Of a stretch of DNA of 35,200 nucleotides, positions 4,543 through 14,626 are shown one piece after another. Position numbers and translations under genes: made by a program. The first letter of the stretch is position 1. Every line of letters starts with the position of its first letter. The notes below the pieces were generated by a model, which saw only the letters and a list, made by a program, of their open reading frames with translations, made no database searches and was not told where the DNA came from. This stretch comes from Myxococcales bacterium (GTDB taxonomy: Bacteria; Myxococcota_A; Polyangia; Haliangiales; Haliangiaceae), in assembly GCA_005779305.1 (NCBI GenBank), contig SXJR01000303.1, forward strand, positions 1 through 35,200, given 5' to 3'.

Positions 4543-4803
4543 CTACTCCTTCTCGACGATCTCGAGGATGCGGATGGCGCAGCGATCCCCGACCGCGACC
4601 GCCTCGGCGCGCGCCACCAGTCGGGAGTTGATGCGTACGTCGAGCGGCGCGCCGGTCAGCTTGTCGAGGGTGATGATCGAGCCGGGGCCGAGCCGGCCGG
4701 CCAGCTCGGCCAGGCTCAGTCGGATCCTTCCCAGCTCGACCGTGAGCTCGAGGGGAACGTCGTGGAGCAGGGTCTCGAGGCGCTTGACGTCGGGTTCGTT
4801 CAT
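4543..4803 (-). CDS. fliN: FliN, flagellar motor switch protein
   Basis: FliN is a C-ring protein that works with FliM and FliG in torque and direction switching and docks FliH for export. The protein is 86 residues, essentially just the SpoA (surface presentation of antigens) domain. Residues about 14-83 carry the family pattern VPLELTVELGRIRLSLAEL, LGPGSIITLDK and a C-terminal strand around GDRCAIRILEIV. It lacks the disordered N-terminal extension found in many FliN proteins. The ATG overlaps the fliM stop (ATGA), and the stop is 5 bases before fliO, so it is embedded in the fliM-fliN-fliO-fliP run. Confidence 0.94.
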   Translation of the reverse strand: MNEPDVKRLETLLHDVPLELTVELGRIRLSLAELAGRLGPGSIITLDKLTGAPLDVRINSRLVARAEAVAVGDRCAIRILEIVEKE

Positions 4804-5729
4804 CGGTGGTCCCTTCCGGGGGTGACGACGGCGGCGATCTCGACGGCGATCACGCCGCGCGTGACGACGGGCCGACCCCAGGCCTTGAGCACGTCGCCGC
4901 AGTAGATCGGCATGGGGTCGTCGAGGAACACCGGCAGCGCGATCTGCGAACCTGGCCCGAGGGTGCCGAGCTCGGACATCTTGATGGCGATCGTGGCGAG
5001 CTCGACGCGAACCTCGATCGGGACGGCGCCCAGGGCGGCGGCGATGGTGGCGGCGTCGGCGGGCACCGTCGGGTGGCGTTCGGCCGGCGGCATGATGACG
5101 TTTGGGCGTCCCAGCAAGCGGACGCGACCGGTGGTCGCGCCCGAGACCGCGAGGGTCGCGGCGATGACGGTCTCGCCGCCGATCGCGGAGGCGACGGCGT
5201 CGGGACTCGCGACGGGGCGCTCGATCCGGATCCGTTCGATCTCGGCCCAGGTCTGCTCGAGGGCGGCCGTCGCGGCCTCGCCGGCGGGGGCGAACAGCCG
5301 GAGCGCCAGCGGCGATGGATCTCGACCGGCCGCCTTGATCGCCGGGGCACCGCAGCGCTTGGCGGCCGCCGCCTCGATCAGGTCACCGCCGAAGGCGACC
5401 GCGAGCATCCCTCGCCCAGGTGGCGCGATCAGCGCGACCCACATGGGGCGGAGCTCGTCGGGGAGGGACCCGGCGTCGATCACCTCGGCCCCCATCGCGT
5501 CGACCGTCACGTCGCCGACGAAGGTCCGGAGGGAACGGGCGAGGCGCCGCGCCCAGCGCTGGGCCAGTTCGGCCAGACGGGGGCGCGCGGCCTGAGCTTC
5601 GCGATCAGCAGCGATCAGCGGCAGGGGCTGGGGTTCATGCTGCGGGACCGATGGCGTGGCCGAGGCCCCTTGCCGGATCGCCGCCTGGATCGCCTCGAGC
5701 TCCTGTGGATCGAGGGGATGTTCACTCAC
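4800..5729 (-). CDS. fliM: FliM, flagellar motor switch protein (divergent)
   Basis: FliM is the middle C-ring protein that binds CheY-P, FliG and FliN. Starting at GTG 5729 it has 309 residues. Residues 5-16 (HPLDPQELEAIQ) occupy the place of the FliM CheY-binding peptide but keep little of the consensus. Residues about 60-210 correspond to the CheC-like middle domain, with RRLARSLR, a FGGD and a helix ending in LEQTWAEIE. A C-terminal SpoA domain at about 225-300 includes VELATIAIKMSELGTLGPGSQIAL. The start has an adjacent GAAAGG and a sigma-54 site just upstream. The frame is open much further upstream, but that stretch is the shadow of the receiver-HDOD gene. Strong divergence from enteric FliM is evident. 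Confidence 0.88.
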   Translation of the reverse strand: MSEHPLDPQELEAIQAAIRQGASATPSVPQHEPQPLPLIAADREAQAARPRLAELAQRWARRLARSLRTFVGDVTVDAMGAEVIDAGSLPDELRPMWVALIAPPGRGMLAVAFGGDLIEAAAAKRCGAPAIKAAGRDPSPLALRLFAPAGEAATAALEQTWAEIERIRIERPVASPDAVASAIGGETVIAATLAVSGATTGRVRLLGRPNVIMPPAERHPTVPADAATIAAALGAVPIEVRVELATIAIKMSELGTLGPGSQIALPVFLDDPMPIYCGDVLKAWGRPVVTRGVIAVEIAAVVTPGRDHR

Positions 5730-7892: not shown

Positions 7893-9083
7893 GTGGCCCG
7901 TGATCTCGTACTCGGCGTCGACTTCGGCACGAGCTACACCTCGGCCGGCGCCTTCGTCGACGGGCGCGTCGAGCTGGTGGTCGACAATGGAGATCCCATG
8001 ATCCCGTCGGTGGTCCACGTGCCCGCGCGGGGGCCGCTGGTGGTCGGCCACGCCGCGGTCGGTCACCTGGCGGCGCATCCGGGCACCACGGTCGCGTCGA
8101 TCAAGCGTCTACTGGGCAGCGACCTGTCCGAGGCTGGCGCGATCCGGCGTCTCGCGCCGACCCTCCCGTACCGCATCACCGCCGGCGCCGGAGGCCGTGC
8201 GCTGCTCCAGCTCGGATCGCACGCCTTCGCGGCCGAGCAGATCGCCGCGGCCATCTTCGACCGCGTGCGCAGCCTCGCGGAACAGCGCTTCGGCGCCAGC
8301 ATCCGGCGTGCCGTGGTGACCGCGTCCGCGGTGGCGCCACCAGGATATGTCGAGGCCCTGCGCCGGGCCGCCCGTCTCGCGCACCTCGAGATCGTCGAAG
8401 TCCTGGCCGAGCCGATCGCGGGCGCGCTCGCCGTCGGGATGCACGGGCGCCCGGCGTCCCGCCGGCTGCTGGTGTGTGACTTCGGCGGCGGCACCTTCGA
8501 CGTCACCACGATGAACCAGGCCGGGCTTCGCTTTCAGTCGATCGCCACCGGCGGGGATCCGTTCCTCGGCGGCGACGACCTCGATGAGGCGATGGTCCAG
8601 GAGCTCGCCGGACTGGTGTTCCGACGGGCGCGTTTCGACCTGCTCCGCGACGTCGTCCGTCGCCAGGTGCTCGCCCAGCGCTGCGAGTCCGCCAAGCGAG
8701 CGTTGTCGAGCGCGAGCGAGGCGCGCATGAACATGCGCGATGCTTACATCGAGGACGGCGCCGGACGCGACATCAACATCGTCCTCGAAAGGACGTGGGC
8801 CGAGCGGCTGTGGGATCCACTGTTCGCGCGCGCCCTCACCGCAGTCGACGACACCCTCAACCGGTCCCGCTGGTCCGACACCGACGTCGATGAGGTCGTC
8901 TTGATCGGCGGCACGTCGCTGGTGCCTCGGTTCCAGGCCTGGGTGAGCCAGCGCTTCGAGCACGTCGAGGTTACCTCCACCGACATCGCCAACGTGGCGG
9001 TCGCGATGGGCGCCACCTTGCTCACCGCCCGTCACGGGCCCGGCGGCGCCGCGGTCCCGGTCCTCGAGCCGATGTCGGCCTGA
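7893..9083 (+). CDS. Hsp70-family ATPase-domain protein
   Basis: An actin-fold ATPase of the Hsp70 superfamily, 396 residues. It has phosphate-1 motif VDFGTSYT (residues 9-16), phosphate-2 motif CDFGGGTFDV with Asp196, and adenosine motif VLIGGTSLVP near residue 336. It ends about where the DnaK nucleotide-binding domain ends, so the substrate-binding domain is missing. It cannot be a normal DnaK chaperone; it may be a signalling or assembly ATPase. The frame is open upstream, but that overlaps the divergent kinase and is non-conserved, so GTG 7893, 6 residues before the first strand, is preferred. No clear ribosome site is seen. It is the first gene of the plus-strand island between the two flagellar halves. 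Confidence 0.88.
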   Translation: MARDLVLGVDFGTSYTSAGAFVDGRVELVVDNGDPMIPSVVHVPARGPLVVGHAAVGHLAAHPGTTVASIKRLLGSDLSEAGAIRRLAPTLPYRITAGAGGRALLQLGSHAFAAEQIAAAIFDRVRSLAEQRFGASIRRAVVTASAVAPPGYVEALRRAARLAHLEIVEVLAEPIAGALAVGMHGRPASRRLLVCDFGGGTFDVTTMNQAGLRFQSIATGGDPFLGGDDLDEAMVQELAGLVFRRARFDLLRDVVRRQVLAQRCESAKRALSSASEARMNMRDAYIEDGAGRDINIVLERTWAERLWDPLFARALTAVDDTLNRSRWSDTDVDEVVLIGGTSLVPRFQAWVSQRFEHVEVTSTDIANVAVAMGATLLTARHGPGGAAVPVLEPMSA

Positions 9084-9157
9084 CGATGTGTCGTCAACGG
9101 CCCCACCGTCGCGCCCGCGGCGTTCTTCCACGTAGGCCAGACCTTTCACTTTTCAGG

Positions 9158-9172
9158 TGGCACCGATGATGC
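9158..9172 (+). promoter_or_regulatory. Candidate sigma-54 (-24/-12) promoter for the Ser/Thr kinase operon
   Basis: Reads TGGCAC-N5-ATGC followed by A: one mismatch to the RpoN consensus, with exact GG-N10-GC spacing. It overlaps the upstream alternative start codons of the kinase (9157, 9166, 9169), which would then be promoter DNA. The next in-frame ATG, at 9190, is 18 bases after the -12 C, matching the geometry at the other sigma-54 sites. Confidence 0.5.
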
Positions 9173-9189
9173 ACACAAGAAAGTCCGCG

Positions 9190-10155
9190 ATGTGCGACCT
9201 CGGCGAACGGTTCACCGGGCCACACCTGAGGGTGGTCGCGAGCACGTCGACCGTCCCGATGGCCTTGGGAAGCCAACCCTTCGAGGCGGTGACCCTCCCA
9301 CCACCGCGCCTGGGCGACTACCGCGTCCTGGCCCTCCTCGCCAAAGGTGGGATGGGTGGCGTCTACCTCGGGGAACACGTGGTCACCGGCGAACGCGTCG
9401 CCATCAAGGTTCTCGACGCTCGCTGGGCCGCGCACGATTCGATCGTCGCCCGCCTGATGGGCGAGTACGAGGTCTCGCAGCGCGTCAGCCACGAGGGACT
9501 GGTCCGGATCCACGCCGCGTCGCAGTCGGAGGACGTCCCCTACCTGCTCATGGAAGTGCTCGACGGAGAGAACCTGGCCAGCCTGCTCGGTCGCAGCCAG
9601 ATCGAACTCGGCGCCGTGGCTGCCATCGGCGCGCAGGTGGCCGATGCCGTCGCGGCGATGCATGACGCACGGGTGGTGCACTGCGACCTGAAGCCCGAGA
9701 ACGTCATGGTGCTCTACCGCGACGGTCTCGCGGGCTGGCCGCGCGCCAAGGTGCTGGACTTCGGCGTGGCGCGGTTCGACGAGAGCCTCGCGATCCAGGA
9801 GATCGCCGGCACTCCTTGCTACATGGCGCCCGAGCAGTGGCGTGGTCACGCCGAGGCTCGCTCGGACGTGTACGCGCTGGGCTGCCTGCTGTACGAGCTC
9901 GCGACCGGTCGCGCACCCTTCGAGGGCCCGATCGCCCAGGTGATGGCCGACCACCATGATCGCCTGCCGCCGGCGATCTCGACTCACCGGGTCGTCCCGG
10001 GGTCGTTCGATCGGCTGGTGTCGCGCATGCTGGCCAAGGAGCCTGGCATGCGGCCGCGCATGAACGAGATCGCCCGTTCGCTGGCTGACGTCGCGTACGC
10101 CATGCCTCCGGGTGCCCGCGGCGGCGCGTGGTGTGCGGCGGCCGGCTCACGCTGA
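9190..10155 (+). CDS. Soluble Ser/Thr protein kinase (PknB-like, non-RD)
   Basis: A eukaryotic-type Ser/Thr kinase of 321 residues with no membrane helix or extra sensor domain. Numbered from ATG 9190: glycine-rich loop KGGMGGVYLG (52-61), ATP-binding Lys73 in VAIK, catalytic loop HCDLKPEN (164-171) with Asp166, DFG at 190-192, and GTPCYMAPEQW in the activation segment. The Arg of the usual HRD is Cys, which makes it a non-RD kinase; in characterised families these are often less dependent on activation-loop phosphorylation. Alternative starts are 9157, 9166 and 9169; 9190 was chosen because a sigma-54-type site overlaps the others. Its substrate is unknown. The gene is 58 bases upstream of the carbonic anhydrase. 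Confidence 0.9.
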   Translation: MCDLGERFTGPHLRVVASTSTVPMALGSQPFEAVTLPPPRLGDYRVLALLAKGGMGGVYLGEHVVTGERVAIKVLDARWAAHDSIVARLMGEYEVSQRVSHEGLVRIHAASQSEDVPYLLMEVLDGENLASLLGRSQIELGAVAAIGAQVADAVAAMHDARVVHCDLKPENVMVLYRDGLAGWPRAKVLDFGVARFDESLAIQEIAGTPCYMAPEQWRGHAEARSDVYALGCLLYELATGRAPFEGPIAQVMADHHDRLPPAISTHRVVPGSFDRLVSRMLAKEPGMRPRMNEIARSLADVAYAMPPGARGGAWCAAAGSR

Positions 10156-10213
10156 CGCGCGCCCGCGACGCCCCGGACCTTCACAGCGGCGGCGCCCGGA
10201 CGATCCATGACTC

Positions 10214-11218
10214 GTGCGTCGTCTCGGATTCCTCGTCGTGATCGTGGGCTGCAAGTACGCCGAACAACCCGCGAGGGTGGAGGCGCTCGAGCGGCGGCTC
10301 GACAAGGTCGCGGCAGCGGTCTCGGAGCTGTCCGGTGAACCCGGCCCCGGGTCCGCGGCGATCGACCCCAAGCACAAGGGCAAGCAACACGAGGCCGGCA
10401 AGTCGGCCGCGAAGGCGAAAGCGAAGGCGAAGGCGAAAGCGGCCGATGCCCACGGCGACGCAGCTGATCATGAACCCGCGCCTCGCGCCAACGCCGCTCC
10501 CCACGGCGGCGCCGCGGCCCCGGCCGCCGCCGCCGCCCTGGCGACACCGCACGGCGACGTCCACTGGGAATACGGCGGGGCGAACGGGCCGCCACACTGG
10601 GCCGACCTCGCCCCGGCGTTTGCCACCTGCGCCAGCGGCAGCGCGCAGTCGCCCGTCGACATCCTGCCAAGGCCGGGCGCCGCGCCCGAGGTGTTCCTCA
10701 TCTACCGCCCGACCCGCGGCGTCGTGGTCGACAACGGCCACACCCTCCAGGTGAACCTCGATCCCGGCAACTTCGCGATCGTCGACGGGGTTCGCTTCGA
10801 TCTGTTGCAGTTCCACGTTCACACGCCGAGCGAGCACACGATCGCCGGCGAGGCGTTTCCACTCGAGGTGCACCTCGTCCATCGCGACCGGTCCGGGGCG
10901 CTGGCGGTGGTCGGCGTGCTGTTCGACGAGGGCGCGCCCTCGCCCGCGATGGCGCCGGTGTGGAAGGGGGCGCCCCGGGCCAAGGGTGGCGAGCGCCGCC
11001 TCGAGCGCCCCTTCGATCCCGGGGGGCTCTTGCCGCGGGATCACGGTGCGTATCGATACGACGGCTCACTGACCACGCCGCCGTGTAGTGAAGGGGTGCG
11101 GTGGATCGTGCTCAAGCGGAGTCGCACCGAGGACGGCGCTCGCATCGCTGCCTTTCGCAAGCGATTCGGTGACAACGCCCGGCCGGTCCAGGCGCTGGGC
11201 GAGCGAGAGGTGCACTGA
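10214..11218 (+). CDS. Lipoprotein-type alpha-carbonic anhydrase
   Basis: Alpha-carbonic anhydrase, interconverting CO2 and bicarbonate outside the cytoplasm; 334 residues. The GTG start is followed by a short signal (RR, then LGFLVVIVGC) with a lipobox at Cys13. Then come a coiled-coil-like heptad stretch (20-41), a Lys/Ala-rich linker (55-110) and the catalytic domain from about 115. Zinc ligands His201, His203 (QFHVHTPSEHT) and His220 (EVHLVH) are present, as are QSPVDI, the gatekeeper Thr in GSLTTPPC, and Cys139/Cys291, which fit the bacterial disulfide. It should be active. The N-terminal anchor-coiled-coil-linker is unusual. Its stop overlaps the start of the zinc-ribbon gene (TGATG), so it is coupled to a signalling/ATPase operon. 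Confidence 0.92.
   Translation: MRRLGFLVVIVGCKYAEQPARVEALERRLDKVAAAVSELSGEPGPGSAAIDPKHKGKQHEAGKSAAKAKAKAKAKAADAHGDAADHEPAPRANAAPHGGAAAPAAAAALATPHGDVHWEYGGANGPPHWADLAPAFATCASGSAQSPVDILPRPGAAPEVFLIYRPTRGVVVDNGHTLQVNLDPGNFAIVDGVRFDLLQFHVHTPSEHTIAGEAFPLEVHLVHRDRSGALAVVGVLFDEGAPSPAMAPVWKGAPRAKGGERRLERPFDPGGLLPRDHGAYRYDGSLTTPPCSEGVRWIVLKRSRTEDGARIAAFRKRFGDNARPVQALGEREVH
10412..10441. repeat. Six-base tandem repeat in carbonic anhydrase linker
   Basis: About five imperfect AARGCG units encoding alternating Lys-Ala in the linker between lipobox and catalytic domain. Six-base units keep the frame if copy number changes. Confidence 0.7.
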
Positions 11219-11622
11219 TGTCCATCCCGGTCACGGGCGGCCGAGCCTGCCCAGCGTGTGGTCGACCCGCAGCGTCGGGTCGCCGCTTCTGCGGCGGCTG
11301 TCGTGCGGTCATGGTGAGGTCGTGCGGCGCGTGCGGGTTCGGCAACGAGCTCGACGACGCCTGGTGCGGCGGCTGCGGGCGCGCCATGGTCGCGTCGGCC
11401 GCCGCCAGGGCCGCCGCCGCCGCCAGGCCCGCCGGCGGTCCAGCGGGCCCCGTCAGCGCGCCGCGGGCGCCCACGGCGCCACCGCCTTCGCCCACGCCGC
11501 CCGCTACGTCGGCCGCCGCGCTGCTGGCGATCAACCGCGCTCGAGCGTCGGCGACCGACAGCGGCGGAGACGACGTCCGCGATCAGGCGGAGCTGGACGC
11601 GTTGTTCGGCGGGGTCGCATGA
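11218..11622 (+). CDS. Double zinc-ribbon protein with FliM-like C-terminal peptide
   Basis: A 134-residue protein of unknown function. Residues 11-53 hold two treble-cysteine ribbons: C11-x2-C14 with C25-x2-C28, and C36-x2-C39 with C50-x2-C53. An Ala/Pro-rich disordered linker (about 57-110) follows. The last 13 residues are DQAELDALFGGVA. This tail closely resembles the CheY-binding peptide at the N-terminus of E. coli FliM (SQAEIDALLNG) and more loosely the CheY-binding C-terminus of CheZ. It looks like an adaptor: a metal-bound head, a flexible linker and a terminal docking peptide. The ATG overlaps the carbonic anhydrase stop and its stop overlaps the ATPase start (ATGA). A CheY-like receiver lies two genes downstream. 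Confidence 0.82.
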   Translation: MSIPVTGGRACPACGRPAASGRRFCGGCRAVMVRSCGACGFGNELDDAWCGGCGRAMVASAAARAAAAARPAGGPAGPVSAPRAPTAPPPSPTPPATSAAALLAINRARASATDSGGDDVRDQAELDALFGGVA

Positions 11623-12764
11623 CGGCGGCACGGGGAGCGGTGCCGCGCTCGGCGCCTCCGCCGACGCCATCCACGGTCATCGGAGTCGTCGCGCGCCGCA
11701 TCGGCCAGGCCCTGGTCGCCGAGGGGCGGCTCCGATCCCCGCAACTCGACGACATGATCCGACGCGCCGATGGTCGCGAGCGGCGGCCGGGCTGGCTGCT
11801 GGTCGAGGCCGGCGCGCTCGACGAGGCGGGTTGGGTCGAACGCGTGGCGGCGCATTTCGGCATGTCGACGGCACGGATCGCCGACTTCGCGATCGATCGA
11901 GCGCTCGCGGCGCGAGTTCCCGAGGAGGTCGCGCGCCGCCACGAGGTGCTGCCGCTGTGCGACGGCGGTGGTGAGGTCTACGTCGCCGTCGTCGATCCGA
12001 CGAAGCTCGATGTCTTCGATCACCTGCGCCGGCTGCTCGCAGCTCCGATCCTCCCGGTGCTGGTCGCGCCGTCCGAGCTGGCGTCGGCGCTGGAGCAGAT
12101 CTTCCTCAAGGACCAGCCGATCGACTTCGAGCACGTCGATGGCGCCGAGCTCGGCGATCTGAGCGCCGCCGAGCTGGCGCGCCTGAGGGAGGAGGGCGAG
12201 TCCGGTCGCGCCGTTCAGCTCGTCGACCGCCTGCTGGCTCACGCGATCTCGGCCGGAGCGAGCGACATCCACATCGAGACCACCCTGAACCATCTGCGCG
12301 TGCGCTTTCGCGTCGATGGCGTGCTGCGCGACGGACCGCGCTACCCGGTCGCCCTCGCCGCGATGGTCGTGTCGCGGGTGAAGGTGATGGCCCAGCTCGA
12401 CATCTCCGAGCGTTTCGTGCCGCAGGATGGTCGGGTCCGGCTGCGTCGTACCAGCCAGGATCTCGACCTGCGCGTGTCGTGCGTGCCGGTGGCACGTGGC
12501 GAGAAGGTCGTGATCCGGCTGCTCAGCGCGGGCCGCGGGCGAGGTTCGCTCGCCGCGCTCGGGCTGCCCACCGAGGTCGCCGCACGACTGCGCGCCCAGG
12601 TCGCTCGCCCGCAAGGGATGTTCCTGGTCACGGGCCCAACCGGGTCGGGCAAGACCAGCACGCTCTACGGGTTGCTGGGCGAGTGCGCCACCACCGAGAC
12701 CAACGTCGTGACGATCGAAGACCCCGTGGAGTACGAATCGAGTCGCTCAACCAGATCCCCGTGA
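11619..12764 (+). pseudogene. GspE/PilB-like secretion ATPase, N-terminal part (frameshifted)
   Basis: First part of a type II secretion / type IV pilus ATPase gene. The ATG overlaps the zinc-ribbon stop. Residues about 18-75 have the repeat pattern of an MshEN/T2SSE-N domain (RIGQALVAEGRLRSPQL, then GWLLVEAGALDEAGW); some MshEN domains bind c-di-GMP. The N2 domain follows (SASDIHIE-like GASDIHIE) and then the Walker A box GPTGSGKT with Lys345. The frame breaks just after TIEDPVEYE: at 12735-12737 one base is missing relative to the conserved reading, so this frame ends at 12764 before Walker B. Either a sequencing/assembly error or a real mutation. Without repair the product lacks Walker B and is inactive. 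Confidence 0.8.
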
Positions 12765-13381
12765 ACCCCAGGCGCGGCGTGACCTTCGCGACCGCCCTGC
12801 GCGCGATCGTGCGTCAGGATCCGGACGTGATCCTGGTCGGCGAGATCCGCGATCATGAGACCGGCGTCCTCGCCGCCGAGGCCGCCCTCACTGGTCACCT
12901 GCTGATGTCGACCCTGCACACCAACGACGCGGCCACCTCGGTCCTGAGGCTGTGCGAGATGGGGGTGCCGCGGTTCCTGGTCGCCGCGGTGATCAACGCG
13001 GTGGCCGCGCAGCGCCTGATCCGCAAGGTCTGTGGCGGCTGCGCGCAGGAGTATGCGCCGGCGGCCGACGAGCTGCGCGGCCTGCGTGGCGGGCTCGAGG
13101 TGCTGGCCGGCGACGCGCGGCTGCGCTTCGTGCGGGGCACCGGCTGTGCGCGTTGCGAGGGCACCGGGTACCGGGGTCGGGTACCCATCGTCGAGCTGCT
13201 CGTCGTCGACTCGGCGATGCGCGAGGCGATCATCGGCGGAGTGGCGTCGCCGACCCTGCATGCGATGGCGGTCGCCGGCGGCATGACCGACCTGCGCTCC
13301 GCCGCGCTGGCCCGCCTGTTCGGGGGCGAGACCACTACCAGCGAGGTCGTGCGCGTGAGCGCCGGCATGATCGGAGGGTGA
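12737..13381 (+). pseudogene. GspE/PilB-like secretion ATPase, C-terminal part (frameshifted)
   Basis: Continuation of the ATPase in the next frame. Reading resumes seamlessly with NQIPVNPRRGVTFATALRAI, then the Walker B region RQDPDVILVGEIRD, the His box TGHLLMSTLHTNDA, and the zinc-binding tetracysteine CGGC...CARC of the GspE family. The C-terminal end is complete. It has no natural start; a GTG at 12761 happens to overlap the stop of the first part (GTGA), but starting there would give a fragment without Walker A. The CheY-like gene begins one base after the stop. Because both halves are fully conserved, the break is recent or an artefact. Confidence 0.8.
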
Positions 13382-13382
13382 G

Positions 13383-13778
13383 ATGTCCGGTGTCCTCATC
13401 GTCGACCAGTCTCCAGCCGCGGCCGCCACGATCCGGGCCGCCTGTGAACAGGCCGGGCTGCACGTGGTCGGCGTGGCCGCCGACGGCCTGGCTGCGATCG
13501 AGATGGTGCGCGCGATGGCCCCCACCATCGTCACCATCGATCTGGTGCTGCCACGGCTGAGCGGCCTCCAGGTCCTGGAGGCGTTCGCGCGCCTCGGGCT
13601 GGAGCCGCGGGTGGTCGTGATCAGCGCCGTCAGCGCGCGCGAACCCGTGGTGGCCGCACGTGTCGCGGGCGCGCGCGCGTACCTGCTCAAGCCCGTCATC
13701 CCGACCAAGCTCGCCGCGATCCTCGACGAAACGTACCCGTCGACCTCGGCGAATGCCGTCGCCAGGAGGTGCCCGTGA
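13383..13778 (+). CDS. CheY-like single-domain response regulator
   Basis: A stand-alone receiver of 131 residues. Phospho-acceptor Asp53 lies in VTIDLVLPRLSG, the switch Ser at 81 (VVVISAVSA) and Lys103 in LLKPV. The metal-binding acidic pair is incomplete: Asp8 is followed by Gln9 (VLIVDQS) in place of Asp or Glu, which may weaken Mg2+ binding or alter phosphorylation lifetime. There is no output domain, so it should act by binding a partner, as CheY does. The gene starts one base after the ATPase stop, and its stop overlaps the HDOD start (GTGA). Possible partners are the FliM-like tail of the zinc-ribbon protein, the HDOD protein, or FliM itself. Confidence 0.92.
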   Translation: MSGVLIVDQSPAAAATIRAACEQAGLHVVGVAADGLAAIEMVRAMAPTIVTIDLVLPRLSGLQVLEAFARLGLEPRVVVISAVSAREPVVAARVAGARAYLLKPVIPTKLAAILDETYPSTSANAVARRCP

Positions 13779-14626
13779 ACGTCGTCCCGAGCCTGACCCG
13801 CGCGATCGACCTGACCCCGTTCGAACGCGCCGTCGACGAGATCGACGTGACCGCCGCGGTGCCGTCCGTGATCCAGCGGCTGCTCGGCCTGCTGGCGGAT
13901 CCCAACGTCTCGTGGACCCGGATCGAGGCGGCGATGGCCCTCGACGGTGCCCTGGTCGCGCGCGTGCTGCGCATCGCGTCCTCGGCCGCGTTCGCCGCCC
14001 GCCCGGTCGCCGACCTGGCCAGCGCCATGCGGATGCTGGGTTGCGAGGAGCTCCGTCGGGTAGCGGTCACGGCCTACTTCACCGGTCGGGGGACGCCATT
14101 CAGTCGGTCCCTGTGGGACTACTCGCTGCGCATCGCGTTCACGACGACCGCCCTGGCGCGGACCGTTCGTCACCGCGGCAGCGCCGATCCATTCCTGTGC
14201 GGCCTTCTGCACGACATCGGCACGATGGCGTTCTCGCGCATCATGGGGCCGACCTACGAGAAGGTCGGCTTCACCCCTGGGGAGGACGACCAGGTCGAGC
14301 TGGAACGCGCCAGCTACGGATTCGACCACACCGATCTCGGCGCGATGGTGGCCAGCCGCTGGAACCTGTTCCCGGAGCTGGAACTGGTGGCCCAGCTCCA
14401 CCACGATCCGCTGGCGTGCGAGCGGATCGGCGCGCCGACCGCCACGCGGGAGCTGGTCGAGCTGGTCGCGCTGGCCCGCTTGCTCGGGCGGGGCGAGGAC
14501 GGCCCGACCCGAGCCCTCCGCGATGCGGCGTGTGCGCGGGTGGGCACGTCGGTCGAGGCCGCGGAGGCGTGCGCGGTGGCCGCCGCGCGTCAGGCCAGCG
14601 ACCTGCGCAGTTCGGTCGGCAGCTGA
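13775..14626 (+). CDS. HDOD domain protein
   Basis: A 283-residue protein that is almost entirely an HDOD domain (residues about 20-225), with VPSVIQRLLGLLADPNV, LVARVLRIASSAAF, AMRMLGCEELRRV and an intact HD motif in LCGLLHDIGTMAF. The C-terminal helices (230-283) are not distinctive. The start is GTG 13775, with AGGAGG at 13764-13769 five bases upstream and overlap with the receiver stop; GTG 13769 is an alternative inside the ribosome site. It is the last gene of the plus-strand island, convergent with flgE and separated from it by 21 bases in which I see no terminator. A CheY-HDOD pair suggests a signalling output module. Confidence 0.9.
   Translation: MNVVPSLTRAIDLTPFERAVDEIDVTAAVPSVIQRLLGLLADPNVSWTRIEAAMALDGALVARVLRIASSAAFAARPVADLASAMRMLGCEELRRVAVTAYFTGRGTPFSRSLWDYSLRIAFTTTALARTVRHRGSADPFLCGLLHDIGTMAFSRIMGPTYEKVGFTPGEDDQVELERASYGFDHTDLGAMVASRWNLFPELELVAQLHHDPLACERIGAPTATRELVELVALARLLGRGEDGPTRALRDAACARVGTSVEAAEACAVAAARQASDLRSSVGS

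Follow-up and report, generated by a model that had tools for sequence, protein, structure and literature searches.

A double-zinc-ribbon protein with a FliM-like C-terminal peptide as a probable adaptor between a CheY-like receiver and a PilB/GspE-like ATPase

A small protein of a Myxococcales bacterium combines a double zinc ribbon with a C-terminal peptide resembling the CheY-binding peptide of FliM, and its operon also encodes a PilB/GspE-like ATPase and a CheY-like receiver, which raises the question of what the peptide binds and which machine it serves. The window analysed here is the whole stretch of 35,200 nucleotides (G000:C245), from an assembly of 8.08 Mb that is 75% complete. The protein is probably an adaptor that brings the CheY-like receiver to the ATPase, the tail acting as a CheY-docking motif of the FliM/CheZ kind. 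The relevant features of the window are as follows.

4800..5729, minus strand: divergent FliM candidate (TIGR01397) with a degenerate N-terminal peptide; genomic context, not part of the module
11218..11622, plus strand: adaptor of 134 aa with a double zinc ribbon, a Pro/Ala linker and a C-terminal peptide (PF12773, ortholog alignment)
11248..11376, plus strand: double zinc ribbon with four CxxC pairs (PF12773, alignment, AF2 prediction of the relative at L149)
11509..11538, plus strand: second short linker segment, SAAALLAINR, about 22 residues N-terminal of the tail Q
11581..11619, plus strand: FliM/CheZ-like tail DQAELDALFGGVA (Q, D and F invariant in 14 orthologs; matrix transfer)
11619..12764, plus strand: N-terminal part of a PilB/GspE-like ATPase, its start overlapping the adaptor stop as ATGA (by eye)
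12761..13381, plus strand: C-terminal part of the PilB/GspE-like ATPase in another frame, with an apparent frameshift near 12734
13383..13778, plus strand: single-domain CheY-like receiver (PF00072, 75.8 bits)
13775..14626, plus strand: HDOD protein, the final gene of the operon (PF08668, 120.4 bits)

The product of the reading frame at 11218-11622 (plus strand) ends in ...DVRDQAELDALFGGVA, in which DQAELDALFGG occupies 11581-11613 and is followed by VA and the stop codon. The preliminary description had likened this peptide to SQAEIDALLNG of E. coli FliM at most positions, and 7 of the 11 positions are indeed identical; the motif was recognised correctly, whereas the interval given for it (11587..11622) starts two codons inside the motif. 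Its account of a metal-ribbon head, a Pro/Ala linker and a tail agrees with the Pfam match to the DZR family (PF12773, 27.4 bits against a cut-off of 27.3) and with eight invariant cysteines in 14 orthologs. Ribbon families are the only Pfam matches of the window adaptor at E<=1, where neither a FliM middle domain, a SpoA domain nor a CheZ family was found, and none of the CheF-type PH-like or helical C-terminal families of Pfam was matched.

Orthologs were sought in 56 genomes, the window's own included; matches were obtained in 24, and ribbon and tail are both present in 14 orthologs (again with the window's). In the alignment of these 14, M1, the eight cysteines and the tail residues Q123, D127 and F130 are all invariant, and the linker varies in both length and sequence. 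Between the window and G002, the tail and its flank contain 8 identical codons, 3 synonymous and 2 non-synonymous changes, and the linker contains 13, 14 and 39, respectively; the corresponding counts for G003 (5, 3 and 5 in the tail, 10, 15 and 39 in the linker) give a weaker contrast, so that the codon counts clearly agree with tail conservation in one of the two comparisons. Judged from the alignment, the tail is a real feature conserved beyond chance, as the orthologs keep the tail but not the linker.

To compare the tail with known CheY-binding peptides, a 10-position matrix was built from 14 order-level tails and scored against 148141 background 10-mers. In all 26 proteins of other groups, some of which came from profile searches whose profile includes the tail, the best-scoring window lies at most 14 residues from the C-terminus. 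For 24 of these proteins, no shuffled linker equalled the real score in 300 trials; L281 was equalled in 1% of trials and the second copy of L284 in 0.3%. The L281 tail scores 6.3 bits, whereas the 99.99% mark of the background lies at 9.2. Among known peptides, that of E. coli FliM scores 16.6 bits (6.8e-6 of the background is as good), the Caulobacter FliM peptide 11.1 bits (2.7e-5), two FliM proteins of the window's class 12.1 bits each, and the CheZ C-terminal peptide 13.4 bits. The likeness to FliM spans Q, I/L/V, D and L/F, and often a hydrophobic residue before SQ as well. The loci behind the matrix and behind the neighbour counts given below were chosen for the presence of ribbon and tail, and several are close relatives (L168, L266 and L269 are near-copies).

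A profile of 24 tails retrieved neither FliM nor CheZ from PDB chains at E<=10, and ten tails gave no match to NCBIfam models; homology of the tail to FliM or CheZ is unproven by such searches because the motif is too short. The Caulobacter FliM peptide, which carries ILNQDEIDSLLG, binds the CheY-like protein CleD, and an ID-to-WA change in it abolishes binding of CleA (PMC5677366); the motif "EIDALL" is named in PMC9126983. A signal for degradation or oligomerisation, with no CheY role, is a hardly credible reading of the tail: although it is short and lies at the extreme C-terminus, such a signal would leave unexplained both the match to FliM peptides and the constancy of a receiver gene nearby.

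The architecture is not confined to the window's family. Among 317 genomes of the window's class, at least 86 match the adaptor profile at 1e-6 and at least 13 of the matches extend to the tail, in addition to that of G027, whose tail was read directly; all tailed orthologs of this class belong to the window's family except G030, which is of the same order. A scan of named genomes, in which 80 of 140 loci were taken and 50 of those 80 were read, revealed tailed ribbon proteins in Deltaproteobacteria (L149, L168), Planctomycetota (L173), Nitrospirae (L177), Bacteroidetes (L191) and Chlorobiota (L193), in bacteria at L143 and L157, and in an odd member of the Polyangiaceae (L137). The tails of these distant relatives include VSQDDIDALFGG, FDQDDIDALFSS, LSQDALDRMF, VSQDDIDQLLKGSS and LSQEEIEKLI. 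Matches extending to the tail occur in at least 6 of 247 genomes in the phylum of L149 (three being seeds), at least 11 of 198 in that of L177 (one seed) and at least 4 of 247 in that of L191 (one seed). The class- and phylum-wide counts are lower bounds, with 10 to 22 candidates scored per genome.

The constant feature of these loci is the gene company of the adaptor. Using profiles built from the module genes, neighbours were counted at 40 loci, one of which (L082) is truncated and yielded no ribbon, leaving 40 tailed proteins at 39 loci. A receiver is encoded on the same strand within 3.2 kb of 39 of the 40, and a PilB/GspE-like ATPase neighbours 39 of the 40, within 200 nt in 38 cases; at L032 both receiver and ATPase are remnants, the latter at a distance of 208 nt. 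CheX accompanies 13 of the tailed proteins and HDOD proteins accompany 6. The exception is L137, whose tail has no Q and scores 12.3 bits: its own strand has neither receiver nor ATPase, and the opposite strand carries a receiver and a CheX-like gene. Neither neighbour was seen in the available sequence beside five tail-less ribbon paralogs (about 1.5 kb per side or less for four), nor beside four more small ribbon frames, of which two or more resemble truncated cyclase genes. Two tandem sets of receiver, ribbon protein and ATPase occur at L284, and L283 has a tandem set in which a second ribbon protein lies between receiver and ATPase. Next to the L173 module, the opposite strand encodes a secretin, PilO, T2SSF and T2SSG, company that suggests a machine of the pilus or type II secretion kind.

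In the window itself, positions 2-356 of TIGR02538 match 11700-12734 and positions 353-562 match 12722-13360, and the receiver that had been placed two genes downstream is found at 13383-13778, after the ATPase in its two overlapping frames. Conservation of ribbon and tail beside a CheY-like gene, which had been put forward as a check, is seen both in the 14 orthologs and in the receiver count. Proximity to flagellar genes, the other half of that check, is seen in the window, where the opposite strand carries a flagellar operon (FlgE by Pfam), and at L032 and L033, whereas the constant partner is the ATPase.

The neighbours cannot tell which partner the tail touches, because receiver and ATPase always co-occur. 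The tail could dock on the PilB-like ATPase or on CheX instead of the receiver, in which case it would resemble FliM through convergence on a common amphipathic helix. We regard this as unlikely: the receiver is no more constant a neighbour than the ATPase, and the adaptor and ATPase genes often overlap or touch, but known FliM peptides are equalled by 0.7-2.7 per 100,000 background 10-mers (the best background 10-mer reaches 19.0 bits), and structure prediction does not place the tail on the ATPase with confidence. When the L149 adaptor was modelled with AF2 as a fusion to its own ATPase, with the intergenic stop read as Gly and 17 sequences in the alignment, the mean pLDDT was 80.5 and the pTM 0.52; the ribbon (residues 1-50) is fairly confident, with block means of 76-84, and the linker and tail have block means of 33-51, the tail forming a short predicted helix at residues 105-112. 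Judged by pLDDT, nothing in this model suggests docking of the tail on the ATPase, and low confidence in the helix is expected because the partner of the motif is absent. A different part of the adaptor may make that contact: a hydrophobic linker segment comparable to SAAALLAINR lies 22-33 residues N-terminal of the tail Q in 31 of the 40 proteins, whereas 3.5 would be expected if linkers are shuffled.

The module ATPases share the T2SSE and MshEN domains (present by Pfam in all three tested) and the tetracysteine motif with PilB, GspE and MshE, but separate from the other PilB-like ATPases compared. The best of six reaches 624.5 bits with TIGR02538 (PilB) and 604.8 with TIGR02533 (GspE), under the equivalog cut-offs of 675.65 and 630.25; in a survey of 27 genomes, all module ATPases listed fall under the TIGR02538 cut-off, and another gene passes it in 21 of the 27. 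In a tree of 57 sequences, a single branch (98/93; 99% of bootstrap trees) separates 37 module ATPases from 20 other PilB-like ATPases, the latter hand-picked from these genomes and including one 326-aa piece. The branches of L191, L157 and L173 drew a long-branch warning. The ATPases of L149 and L177 pass the c-di-GMP motif model NF053729. Furthermore, it is possible, albeit tentative, that this ATPase lineage has a switch of its own, in which several ribbon adaptors would surround the hexamer and their FliM-like tails would read the phosphorylated receiver as the C-ring does, the change from L to F at the peptide end separating the two circuits.

Some module ATPases have an unusual Walker A motif: GPSVGGKT at L284 (3539-5233), GPAGSGKS at L283 (5418-7109) and GPPGCGKT at L191 (3188-4882). 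Those of L283 and L284 are encoded in tandem with an ATPase bearing the standard motif, and the tandem pairs perhaps form hetero-oligomers.

The receivers are related to those of chemotaxis. For both module receivers that were searched, one of them the window receiver (13383-13778), the closest solved sequences are chemotaxis CheY. The assignment of the window receiver as CheY-like follows from PF00072 and from an alignment scored on marks of CheY (the acidic pocket, Asp57, Thr/Ser87, Lys109 and an aromatic residue at 106); in place of the two acidic residues of CheY it has DQ. At the place of CheY Tyr106, 39 of 43 module receivers have Tyr and 3 have Phe, and Tyr occurs in 13 of 20 other scorable receivers (24 examined), a contrast that is suggestive only. 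Genes that may act on such a receiver accompany the module in some lineages: CheX (PF13690) scores 57.8 bits at L149 and falls slightly under the cut-off at L036 and L040, and kinases with Hpt and HATPase domains are encoded at L040 and L033. At L149 (9096-10004), as at the related loci L168 and L266-L269, the gene of a receiver-GGDEF protein abuts or overlaps the beginning of the adaptor gene, and a local c-di-GMP input is likely at modules of this type.

We therefore propose a module of a CheY-like receiver, a double-zinc-ribbon adaptor and a PilB/GspE-like ATPase, to which some lineages would add a CheX-type phosphatase, an Hpt-bearing kinase, an HDOD protein or a receiver-GGDEF protein. 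The ribbon, the linker segment or both would remain with the ATPase or its machine. Upon phosphorylation of the receiver, its α4-β5-α5 face would take the tail as an amphipathic helix, which would concentrate the phosphorylated receiver on the hexameric motor and alter the activity or the placement of the motor. CheX, where present, would reset the signal.

FliM was examined in genomes that carry the module. The FliM candidate of the window (4800-5729, minus strand) matches TIGR01397 with 21.4 bits over the C-terminal domain only, and it starts with LDPQELEAIQAAI, which scores -3.9 in the tail matrix, a value reached by 2.5% of background 10-mers; the earlier statement that the window's FliM has a poor version of the peptide is accurate, and the peptide is degenerate at L032 as well. 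For the family of the window, PF02154 was rejected as a flagellar marker: it matched 0 of 30 family genomes, although FliP was found in 12 of 13 family genomes searched for it. FliP was found in 26 of the 36 module genomes searched and not in the other 10, of which G027 is 73% complete and nine are of untold completeness. All 13 FliP-positive module genomes outside the window's order have FliM, and 12 of these retain a recognisable peptide: six have LSQ(E/D/A/Q)E(V/I)DxLL or LSQQEIDxLL, and six have LSQ(E/D)EVNALL, with N for the D of the motif. The remaining FliM, of the planctomycete G320, has the degenerate LDPKEMEALL. The last residue of the peptide is L in all 13 FliM proteins and F in 38 of the 40 adaptors, a possible mark of specificity.

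These data bear on two further readings. That the adaptor competes with or replaces FliM as the flagellar target of CheY is very improbable; it draws on the degenerate FliM peptides of the window and of G320 and on the flagellar genes adjoining the operon in the window, L032 and L033, but FliM peptides are kept in 12 of 13 genomes, so the tail coexists with FliM and is no stand-in for it. The preliminary description had suggested that the protein could be a new adaptor capturing CheY at the expense of FliM or as its substitute. The term adaptor suits this protein best, whereas the capture from FliM is unsupported because the ATPase is constant, the FliM peptide is retained and FliP was not found in 10 of 36 genomes. 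Slightly less improbable is cross-talk, in which the tail would bring the flagellar chemotaxis CheY to the pilus-type ATPase and the operon receiver would be a competitor or phosphate sink. FliP is present in most module genomes and a like motif is found on FliM and adaptor, and therefore one CheY could in principle read both; against this, the 10 genomes where FliP was not found (in incomplete assemblies) have the module, and F versus L at the peptide end may keep the two apart.

The proposed adaptor between receiver and ATPase has parallels in several known systems. The N-terminal CheY-binding peptide of FliM and FliY has the same short motif as the adaptor tail, which is instead C-terminal, belongs to a zinc-ribbon protein in which neither a FliM nor a SpoA domain was found, has F and not L as the last motif residue in 38 of 40 cases, and has a PilB-like ATPase as its constant neighbour. 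CheZ shares both motif and C-terminal position, but the window adaptor has no CheZ domain and the phosphatase of the module, where seen, is CheX-like. CheF is an archaeal adaptor between phosphorylated CheY and the archaellum motor, and resembles the present protein in that its C-terminal part binds CheY-P and the other part is thought to face the motor; instead of zinc ribbons, however, it has a pair of PH-like domains plus a long tail domain, and it binds CheY in a different mode (PMC9126983, in the sections available). The AF2 model of the adaptor relative, with its ribbon, low-confidence linker and short helices, is unlike the CheF domains. The archaellum ATPase is related to PilB, and its model scores 59 bits on the L149 ATPase.

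In the PATAN response regulators, PixG and its kin, an output of the receiver type likewise reaches a pilus extension ATPase, PilB1, but through a PATAN domain inside the regulator, and the available sections of PMC12288463 describe no separate adaptor or FliM-like peptide. In the window receiver, Pfam detects Response_reg and no PATAN domain. The accessible text of a 2024 review of PilB cofactors contains "adaptor" 0 times and "zinc" twice, one zinc passage concerning the own motif of the ATPase (PMC11656802). In a literature search that covered few subscription journals and no bioRxiv preprints, no zinc-ribbon adaptor between CheY and a pilus ATPase appeared in the titles and first parts of abstracts among the matches listed, and none was found that combines zinc ribbon, FliM and CheY.

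To our knowledge, how pilus motors receive chemosensory output is a matter not yet settled for most bacteria. The module described here is conserved, and its adaptor bears a peptide of the best-studied CheY-docking kind; it thereby names the parts of one such route and predicts a contact. If the proposal is true, the CheY-binding motif of flagella is not specific to them, and the docking peptide could be a portable plug. The occurrence of the tailed protein beside a receiver and a pilus-type ATPase in several phyla suggests that bacteria have linked the chemotaxis signal to a second kind of machine.

Further observations concern other occurrences of the motif. A tail pattern gave 98 hits in 28 genomes against 56 for the reversed control, and therefore most pattern hits are chance; of the five hits of a degenerate pattern in the window's genome, three had their frame read, and only that of the adaptor is C-terminal. 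QKQVDDLF, present in several genomes, was rejected as a tail since it is internal to another protein, whose end lies 27 residues further on; QSQVDDLF was rejected as internal. Possible further tail carriers are a 274-aa frame at L069 (G039), which has QADIDRVFG at its C-terminus, and the contig end of G005 (L082), which has SQDDLDRLFGGNA with no ribbon seen there. A second double-ribbon family (L020, L022, L026, L029, L153) ends in segments such as HTMPIDVRDVL or NTVPIESI, without a FliM-like tail.

In the window's genus, L032 (6348-7003; G002:C4) has short remnants of the ATPase, receiver and HDOD genes between an intact adaptor and flgE. Because the ATPase of the window is frameshifted and those genes of G002 are remnants, the module may be undergoing decay within this genus, unless the assemblies are faulty; the frameshift near 12734 (12720-12770) is either a sequencing error or real. 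Upstream of the window adaptor, on the same strand, 7893-11218 contains HSP70-like, Ser/Thr kinase and carbonic-anhydrase-like genes, and their order is apparently the same at L032 (by eye).
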